A DNA stretch of 64,000 nucleotides from Bacteroidia bacterium. Its GTDB lineage: Bacteria > Bacteroidota > Bacteroidia > UKL13-3. The stretch covers positions 62,001-126,000 of the forward strand of contig JAKLJI010000007.1 of NCBI GenBank assembly GCA_023151275.1, read 5' to 3'. Both the position numbers and the translations under genes were made by a program. Shown here piece by piece: positions 15,904-41,944 of this stretch. The notes beneath the pieces are model-generated. The model had not been told where the DNA came from. It saw only the letters and a program-made list of their open reading frames with translations, and did not search any database. The stretch's first letter is position 1; each line of letters begins with the position of its first letter.

Positions 15904-16950
15904 TCAATCACCCTGAACAATCTTCCAGTGTCCGGTTTTATCACTGCCTATGCGCTCCAATTGGCCATTGGTTTTCAATATTTTGATTTTGCGCCTCACG
16001 GAACTTAAACTCAAATTGAGTTTTTCGCTGATTTCCTTGGCTGTAATGGCATTGTTCTGCTTAATTAATGCAAATACAGTGTCATTTACAGTGTCATTTA
16101 CAGTGTCAAGTTGAGGATTTACAGTGTCATTTACAGGGTCAGCCAGAATATGCAGTTCGCGGTTTTTGAGCGGATGCTTGGTTTGGAGGATTAGATTTGA
16201 AAGGAAGCGATTTAAAAACTCTTTGGTACTGAATATTCCTGCTGAAACATCTTCGTAGTTGGCTCGGACGAGTGCATTGCGGAAATACCAGGAATTCTCC
16301 GCAAATAGGTCGTTGATTACCTTTTTGAACCCCAATTTGCGCAAGTATTTTATCAAGAAAACAGCCGTAGTTCTGGTGTTTCCTTCCCCAAAAATATGAA
16401 TCTGCCACAGGTAGGAGATAAAGTGGGCTAAGTGTTCTACAATTTCATGTTCACTTAAGCCTTTGTAGCTAAATTTCCTTTCTTGTTCAAAATCATACTC
16501 CAAAGTTTCTTTCAAGCTGTCGGCGCTGGCATAGAGCACTGTTTCTCCATTCAATACCCACTCCTTTTTTGTGATGTTGTAATCCCTAATTTTTCCTGCA
16601 AATTCATAAATACCGGAAAACAATCTCCGATGAATAGACAAGTACTCGGCAGGCGAAAAGGTAAAGGTTTGTTCGCCTAGTATTTCAGCAATCCGAGCAG
16701 AGACTTTGTCAGCTTCTTCGGTACGATTATCATTTGTTTTGGATGGGTGTTGCTGGTAGTAACTTTCAATCCGCTTTTTAACCTCTTCAATAGAAATTTC
16801 GCCTTCAATATTGTGCTTGGCAGTTTTGATAAGGTATTCAGAAGGCTTTAAGCCATCCACTTGTTGTAAGCCAATGGCTGTCTTCCAAACTTTTGCTTTC
16901 TCAGCTTTGTTTGGTTCGCCTTGCCTCAAATACTCATCAAAGTTTTCCAT
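15904..16950 (-). CDS. Fic-domain protein with VbhA-like N-terminal region and C-terminal winged helix
   Basis: A 348-residue likely AMP- or nucleotide-transferase. Residues ~15-65 (TAIGLQQVDGLKPSEYLIKT) resemble the VbhA antitoxin fold fused to Fic. The Fic motif is HIFGEGNTRTT at 185-195: catalytic H185, F187, E189, N191 and R193 are kept, but G becomes T192 and the last Arg is lost. Residues 273-292 are VNDT tetrapeptide repeats. The C-terminus (AKEISEKLNLSLSSVRRKI) is a winged helix, so it may bind DNA and autoregulate. A 500-base AT-rich gap lies upstream and no separate antitoxin gene is present. Confidence 0.9.
   Translation of the reverse strand: MENFDEYLRQGEPNKAEKAKVWKTAIGLQQVDGLKPSEYLIKTAKHNIEGEISIEEVKKRIESYYQQHPSKTNDNRTEEADKVSARIAEILGEQTFTFSPAEYLSIHRRLFSGIYEFAGKIRDYNITKKEWVLNGETVLYASADSLKETLEYDFEQERKFSYKGLSEHEIVEHLAHFISYLWQIHIFGEGNTRTTAVFLIKYLRKLGFKKVINDLFAENSWYFRNALVRANYEDVSAGIFSTKEFLNRFLSNLILQTKHPLKNRELHILADPVNDTVNPQLDTVNDTVNDTVFALIKQNNAITAKEISEKLNLSLSSVRRKIKILKTNGQLERIGSDKTGHWKIVQGD
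16076..16140. repeat. 12-bp tandem repeat inside the Fic gene
   Basis: Unit acagtgtcattt occurs at 16076-16087, 16088-16099 and 16121-16132, with partial copies at 16100-16108 and 16133-16140. In frame it encodes VNDT on the minus strand. Copy-number change by slippage would keep the reading frame and alter only linker length. Confidence 0.9.
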
Positions 16951-30658: not shown

Positions 30659-30722
30659 GCGTGTACGGATTTGGATTATGCTGCTAGTATAAGCAATCCC
30701 TTTGAATAATGCTGAAGAAATT

Positions 30723-30960
30723 AGCCATGGCGATGGCTATTGGCTTTTGCTTTTGAAATGGGTAAACGATTTGAAATTCTGGGCCAATTAAGATCGTCCA
30801 CGTACATTAATGGCCATAGCCATCGCCAAAAGCTATAGCTTCACCAGTTTAAATCGTTCACGTAAACCAAAGTAAAAGGCCCACCATCCAAAACCGGTTA
30901 CGCACCTAAAGCTATCGCCATCGCCAAAAGCTATAGCTACAACAATTTCAATCGTTCACG
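30723..30960. repeat. Mosaic of direct and inverted repeats in the molybdoenzyme island
   Basis: Two 44-bp direct copies, 30819-30862 and 30917-30960 (98 bases apart), begin gccatcgccaaaagctatag and end aatcgttcacg and differ at about four positions. A degenerate inverted copy covers roughly 30723-30778, and agatcgtccacg at 30791-30802 repeats the unit's end. Downstream gccaaaagc motifs continue to 31000. The whole 346-base spacer (30659-31004) holds no gene. This looks like a dispersed intergenic repeat family. Confidence 0.7.
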
Positions 30961-31004
30961 GAATTCAAAAAGCCAAAAGCAAATGGCCAAAAGCAAACAG
31001 CCAA

Positions 31005-41870: not shown

Positions 41871-41944
41871 TGGTCTCGACAGGATTCAAACCTGTAACCT
41901 TCTGATCCGTAGTCAGATGCTCTATTCAGTTGAGCTACGAAACC
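41871..41944 (-). tRNA. tRNA-Arg (anticodon ACG)
   Basis: A 74-base cloverleaf on the minus strand: acceptor GGTTTCG/CGAGACC with discriminator A, D arm GCTCAACTGAATAGAGC, anticodon stem TCTGA/TCAGA around loop CTACGGA, T arm CAGG-TTTGAAT-CCTG. ACG would be read as ICG after deamination by TadA. CCA is not encoded. Confidence 0.95.

Follow-up and report, generated by a model that had tools for sequence, protein, structure and literature searches.

What fills the one large gap in an otherwise tightly packed operon, and how did it come to be there? The question is raised by a group of molybdoenzyme genes in the window, the stretch of 64,000 nucleotides of a Bacteroidia genome that was analysed. 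The operon lies entirely on the minus strand, with fdhD (PF02634, 31005-31826) upstream, the DUF7009 gene (PF22668, 30293-30658) next and the molybdopterin oxidoreductase (PF00384 and PF01568, 27974-30289) at its end. Other neighbours in the operon overlap or lie 3 bp apart, whereas fdhD and the DUF7009 gene are separated by 346 bp, and repeats fill this gap from 30722 to 31004, so that the preliminary description was right to see a mosaic interrupting an otherwise tight operon here. Measured by alignment, with the stop codon included, the gap is 349 nt in this genome, against 23 nt (about 20 bp between the genes) in both family relatives with the same gene order (G022 and G011, of one genus; loci L146 and L153); in 17 other named pairs of the two genes it ranges from 22 to 234 nt. 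This lineage has thus probably gained some 300 bp here. Over the whole window the only match to Rfam at gathering scores is a tRNA at 41871-41944, with none over the mosaic.

The mosaic was first noticed as two 44-bp copies 98 bases apart that differ at about four sites, and this is borne out by a direct repeat of 59 nt (30813-30871 and 30911-30969, spacing 98, 85% identical) whose best 44-nt stretch has four differing sites. The 21-nt heart of this repeat occurs twice in the 64 kb with up to three mismatches, as opposed to 0.00 expected from 100 shuffles. The degenerate inverted copy that had been described upstream is also present, with 30728-30747 being 85% complementary to 30809-30828. Short pieces had been said to trail to 31000, and a tail of GCCAAAAGC words does follow; there are four occurrences, all within 30825-30994, against 1.5 expected, but since 3 of 100 shuffles also reach four, this word by itself is weak evidence. 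The mosaic runs past the end first given for it (30960) and reaches 31004, where it abuts the fdhD stop codon.

A dispersed repeat family nearly private to one genome

The preliminary description had proposed looking for the unit elsewhere in its own genome, and it is found there in many copies. A 321-bp query (E <= 1) gave 124 places, and a 58-nt sequence model built from 41 copies (threshold E <= 0.01) gave 97 matches on 14 of the 76 contigs, in about 30 arrays, or 91 matches when an exact duplication in contig C26, where six are repeated, is removed. Among 61 other genomes of the family, 12 have one or two model matches each, at E 4e-4 or weaker, and two of the three congeners have one match each and the third none. 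As judged from these sequence searches, the repeat is close to private to this genome. A hidden Markov model (HMM) run on 20 fetched stretches of the genome and on the window gave 108 matches in 29 arrays, including six matches and one array in the duplicate (L038). The duplication itself, between L037 and L038, 17 kb apart on a 34-kb contig, is exact over at least 11,975 bp, array included, and is either real or an assembly artefact. Most arrays lie between called open reading frames (ORFs) and most are near gene ends, as given by a crude ORF caller that assigned L033:10146 to a doubtful ORF although a stop codon is 7 nt away.

The monomer, about 57 nt in total, is a box of 6-7-nt GCC/GCT-A words followed by a core of about 25 nt. 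The boxes are of two types, A (words GCCATCGCCAAAAGCTATAGC) and B (GGCCAAAAGCCAAAAGC), which often alternate, and the core reads roughly ATTTCAAATCGTTCACGAAATCAAA or near AAATCGTTCACGAAATCAAA. Within arrays, tandem units recur at offsets of about 58, 111-121 and 150 nt, with 83-94% identity among the best matches listed, while different arrays are mostly 70-75% identical over 200-430 nt (again among the best matches listed, with no identity filter); two L042 arrays 1 kb apart, 94% identical over 199 nt, are an exception. Since likeness is greater within loci than between them, growth appears to be local and the copies at different loci look old. Higher identity within arrays is also what would be seen if the repeat were a neutral minisatellite, born by slippage near gene ends, enlarged by unequal exchange and having no ability to spread; one monomer at about 30 places, however, needs dispersal, and this origin is considered improbable, ranking third among the explanations weighed here.

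Several other repeats were observed in these regions. A further hairpin repeat, CCACCCCTTACGGGGTTTCAAT / CCACCCGCCGGAGGCGGGTT, lies between or beside array arms in L034 (3380-3900, in tandem at about 160 bp), L045 (8590-8830), L033, L037 and L042. Four arrays of this genome (L040, L043, L050 and L183) stand beside a shared motif GGTCAAC.. with TTTTTTAGGAC or TTTCAGGAC, which resembles an insertion-sequence end, and those of L043 and L183 are near contig ends. The window also holds a degenerate 12-bp tandem repeat of 5.8 copies at 16075-16141 (TACAGTGTCATT).

Composition of the mosaic

When read against this monomer, the gap between the DUF7009 start and the fdhD stop is a quasi-palindrome. The outer end of its left arm is an 18-nt palindrome, TAGCCATGGCGATGGCTA (30722-30739), with a stem of seven pairs on both strands; it overlaps an A-type word box in minus orientation (30728-30748), involved in inverted repeats I1-I3, which is followed by a minus-strand core, GTAAACGATTTGAAATTCTGGGCC (30762-30785), matched by the monomer HMM. 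At the orientation switch a core-like AAGATCGTCCACG can be read on the plus strand (30790-30802), and the core form AATCGTCCACG is common in L036. The right arm, on the plus strand, holds monomer 1, an A-type word box with the core AAATCGTTCACG (30813-30871; model match C74:92815-92871, E 5.5e-12), and monomer 2 (30911-30969; model match C74:92914-92969, E 3.0e-11), and between them a degenerate B-type box, AAAAGGCCC, with a core-like AAAACCGGTTACG (30867-30903) was recognized by reading against other arrays. The arm ends in a heptad tail, AAGCCAAAAGCAAATGGCCAAAAGCAAACAGCC (30966-31004), a tandem repeat of period 14 with a cluster of heptad pattern matches at 30971-31001. On the minus strand, which is the sense strand of the operon, two overlapping terminator-like stem-loops are predicted at 30971-31003, directly after the fdhD stop; the 1-kb region around the mosaic has six terminator-like sites, four of them inside it, compared with 1.6 in shuffles.

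Mobility and the search for a transposase

REPINs and BIMEs are dispersed, intergenic, inverted and hairpin-forming units, present in many copies per genome. The resemblance to a REP/BIME suggested by the preliminary description holds insofar as the repeat is dispersed, intergenic, inverted and of many copies (97 matches), and PF01797, the Y1 transposase family, is matched in 53 of 62 family genomes; the association of REP with a REP-associated tyrosine transposase (RAYT), which had been named as a thing to look for, was not supported by the search. This genome has two Y1 proteins (L139, C44:49636-49980; L140, C75:96753-97088), neither with REP-class motifs. Both carry DH[IV]H, WQ and YI[ES]NQ(K/H)EHH, and in PMC6006769 the motifs of subclass 1.2 are DH[IV]H, WQ and YIKNQKEHH, with class 2 (REP) forms ending in NP, so that the motifs of the two proteins are close to those of subclass 1.2 and not to those of class 2. 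By eye, each Y1 gene stands beside its own GC-rich hairpins (GACCCCAAAGGGGTCG; CGCCCCTTCGGGGC with CTATGGACTTCGCCCATAG) instead of the repeat unit, and no RAYT gene flanked by this unit was found among the PF01797 matches of the genome. These hairpins do not fit neatly with the same source's description of subclass 1.2 as generally being without typical IS200 terminal structures (PMC6006769).

Across the 62 family genomes the counts of arrays and Y1 matches show no significant correlation (rho 0.22, p 0.08, falling to rho 0.02 when genus g6 is excluded). Y1 matches are also lacking in three genomes that have at least 10 pattern matches. By eye, alignment A1 shows no REP-type palindrome with a GTAG or CGTC foot, though some cores contain CGTC (AATCGTCCACG). 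On the strength of the motifs, the other hairpins and the lack of a significant correlation of counts, the RAYT association was rejected, and a classical REP/BIME mobilized by a RAYT is very improbable and, for this genome, close to refuted. A small non-autonomous element, also suggested by the preliminary description, would be a possible alternative. Phage or plasmid carriage was likewise rejected, blastn at 1e-5 giving no match in phage and plasmid records and no 20-mer of the core being found exactly in viral contigs.

Heptad repeats in related genomes

Relatives in the family carry degenerate 7-mer arrays, RGCYAAN, without the core of this genome; they are patchily distributed intergenic inverted repeats of a type that the mosaic resembles. 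Of 64 genomes of the family, 34 matched a three-heptad pattern, and of 395 in the phylum, 87; a reversed control matched 14 of the 64 and 39 of the 395 (the latter counted from the table). The control itself picks up other 7-nt microsatellites, and because pattern and control both include pure microsatellites of this kind, the pattern overstates the degenerate one. The pattern has no match in the three congeners or in 80 named loci around related fdhF genes. That the reversed control finds such microsatellites agrees with the minisatellite origin, as does genome G023, which has both perfect (AGCAAAC)n arrays and degenerate ones.

Three of the perfect arrays of G023 (L236, L237 and L247) have a common 5' flank of about 45 nt and end a few bases from a start codon, as if a single unit had been copied to three genes. 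Also in G023, a heptad array directly follows a tRNA gene in what by eye is an apparent 16S-23S rRNA spacer, in two copies (L230 and L241). A notion of genome-wide heptad "dialects" arising by concerted evolution was dropped, since G042 and G056, whose arms at the sdh locus differ, carry standard heptads elsewhere too.

Orientation of the arms relative to genes

Left arms of the arrays tend to be minus and right arms plus, and the arrays are therefore quasi-palindromes that point at their flanking genes. An array that directly follows a plus-strand gene tends towards minus orientation, and one before the stop of a minus-strand gene towards plus. In all five gaps where the HMM calls both strands (the window, L034, L035, L039 and L044) the order is minus then plus, and the window fits the rule, with its plus arm abutting the fdhD stop and its minus arm nearest the DUF7009 start. 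The boundary rule was followed 19:5 in this genome (p 0.007; 25 pure arrays, one of them far from a gene, with three mixed arrays and the duplicate L038 omitted), where 16 of these 25 have a called gene end no more than 60 nt away. In G023, a single-contig genome with many arrays that stop a few bases short of an ATG, it was followed 24:4 (p 0.0002; 30 clusters, two far), and at the best locus of each of 30 family genomes, this one included, 20:11, which is not significant (p 0.15; 35 clusters, three inside ORFs and one far). All p-values for boundary and polarity treat arrays as independent.

A first strict count of polarity between opposite-strand heptad neighbours gave seven minus-plus and three plus-minus cases, two of the latter (L040 and L170) being overlapping matches of palindromic words. 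With overlaps removed and two mismatches allowed, the family gives 15 minus-plus against one plus-minus (p 0.0005; the 20 fetched regions of this genome excluded, its L183 being among the 30 family loci), and the same sets without mismatches give 8:0. One real exception, a non-overlapping plus-minus pair under the strict pattern, is in L042 of this genome. Such polarity is not expected of a neutral minisatellite. Placement near gene ends in a preferred orientation is in turn a point for a functional RNA element, in which stem-loops after stops or before starts would tune mRNA stability, termination or translation in operons.

The sdhA-sdhB gap across species

The sdhA-sdhB gap allows the arms to be compared at one locus. 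Inverted heptads occupy it in 12 genomes of genus g3 (gap about 111-117 bp), two of which, G042 and G056, are strongly diverged. Of seven further g3 genomes, two (G048 and G050) retain a single arm. The gap of G041 measures 70 bp and lacks heptads, that of G005 and of G018 is bare and 30 bp long, no upstream gene was obtained for G051, and G046 was left out. In all four genomes of the window's own genus the gap is 26-27 bp without the repeat, which counts against an RNA element.

The sense strand of the filled gaps folds with z-scores from -5.4 to -0.7, 10 of the 12 being at -2 or below. RNAalifold gave 18 pairs, nine of them with a paired change, in a structure derived from the same alignment on which it was tested; 90.3% of the cells pair, none of 500 shuffles pairs as highly, and sliding the partner destroys the pairing. 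The folding and the paired changes both agree with an RNA element. Of the nine paired changes, however, G056 accounts for six, G042 for two and G052 for one, and since eight thus fall in two diverged genomes, they stand for few events. The heptad GC columns, which recur every 7 bp, are 0.912 identical, compared with 0.776 for the other arm columns and 0.694 for the loop; the difference between the two classes of arm columns was reached in 3 of 10,000 permutations, and this extra conservation is not expected of a minisatellite either. Because species of one genus differ in whether the gap is filled or bare, the locus offers a ready system for the question of DNA or RNA.

A DNA-level repeat or an RNA element

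A stem acting as sense RNA should show G-U in excess of A-C oppositions. The input was 10 of the 12 sdhA-sdhB rows and 13 other hairpins, of which one and two, respectively, fell below the score limit and were dropped. The ratio of G-U to A-C was 26:36 at sdhA-sdhB (from 9 of the 12 rows) and 45:38 for the other hairpins (11 of the 13), or 26:31 without that of the window. The latter by itself gives 19 G-U to 7 A-C for the sense strand, so that an RNA role is favoured at this place. Start-side and stop-side arrays (24 and 23, with 18 others set aside) do not differ significantly in the letters of their arms (p 0.12 and 0.88). Wobble selection on RNA was therefore rejected, there being no general sign of it and a lean at the window only.

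The sense RNA of the window's gap folds better than shuffles in two computations (z -3.2 and -4.2), and in all 11 pure-orientation arrays of this genome that were folded (14 of 28 passed the length filter, three of these being mixed) greater stability belongs to the strand that shows the array in minus reading. Both results, together with the terminator-like sites at the fdhD stop, speak for an RNA element; the strand differences in stability, nevertheless, follow base composition. In 26 arrays, two mixed ones being left out, the minus reading has 24 terminator-like sites against 11.3 in shuffles and the other reading 6 against 1.3. Tandem intrinsic terminators were judged a weak candidate for the sole function, the number being about twice the shuffled one, with 7 of the 24 sites in one array (L037) and none in 12 of the 26 arrays. 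Further points against an RNA element are two arrays that lie beyond an obvious terminator (L033 and L049, by eye) and the two G023 arrays in apparent rRNA spacers.

As the wobble tests give no general RNA signal, a DNA-level repeat is favoured, and with the arm-letter, fold and terminator results, DNA-level persistence was ranked first and the RNA role second, the latter being possible, if unlikely. It is thus proposed, with moderate confidence, that the mosaic is one locus of a dispersed, nearly private, intergenic palindromic repeat that is kept up and spread at the DNA level without a RAYT and confined by selection to the gaps between genes. That it spreads at all we infer from its distribution alone. 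Hairpin or cruciform formation, together with misalignment during replication or recombination, would keep and spread it, in a manner likened to that of BIMEs and REPINs. Arrays would grow by tandem duplication and be tolerated at gene ends. Locally, the mosaic would place a strongly folding spacer between fdhD and the mRNA of the DUF7009 gene and the molybdoenzyme, possibly uncoupling their expression.

A far more tentative extension, more probably wrong than right, is that Bacteroidota hold RAYT-independent intergenic inverted repeats written in a 7-bp code, with GC every seven bases and variable letters between. Their arms would point at the flanking genes and be kept at orthologous loci with both arms changing jointly, they could recruit a private core, as in this genome, and a protein or replication process reading the 7-bp register would spread and maintain them.

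Comparison with known systems

Repeats with a seven-base period include the STRRs of cyanobacteria. Those considered here are located within operons and next to core genes, sdhAB being an example, and their outward polarity, conserved GC every 7 bp and joint arm change (in two genomes) make them a testable case of a repeat persisting without the known REP transposase. Of the open-licence papers listed in literature searches, none is, judging by title and abstract, about degenerate inverted heptads in Bacteroidota.

The TAACTGA heptamers of some Bacteroidetes are, according to MacGregor 2015 (PMC4679880), intergenic 7-nt direct repeats that follow the same orientation rule relative to genes in one genome. 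Both systems are intergenic, of 7-nt period and of preferred orientation to gene starts and stops (here 19:5 in this genome and 24:4 in G023; 20:11, not significant, at mixed loci). There, however, an exact heptamer stands in direct runs; the present words are degenerate ones (RGCYAAN in the relatives, a mixture of 6-7-nt GCC/GCT-A types, not TAACTGA, in this genome) that form inverted arms, alternating with a core in this genome. Heptanucleotide simple sequence repeats (Mrazek 2007, as cited in PMC4679880; see also PMC4692102) share the seven-base period, but the present repeats differ from them in their degenerate words and in inverted arms of preferred polarity. REPINs and BIMEs are likewise dispersed, intergenic, inverted and hairpin-forming units of many copies; the present family differs in that no REP palindrome was seen by eye and no cognate RAYT found, its arms are arrays of short words, and local tandem growth is strong. 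The closest systems in print are the TAACTGA heptamers (MacGregor 2015) and the REPINs (PMC3116915, among others).
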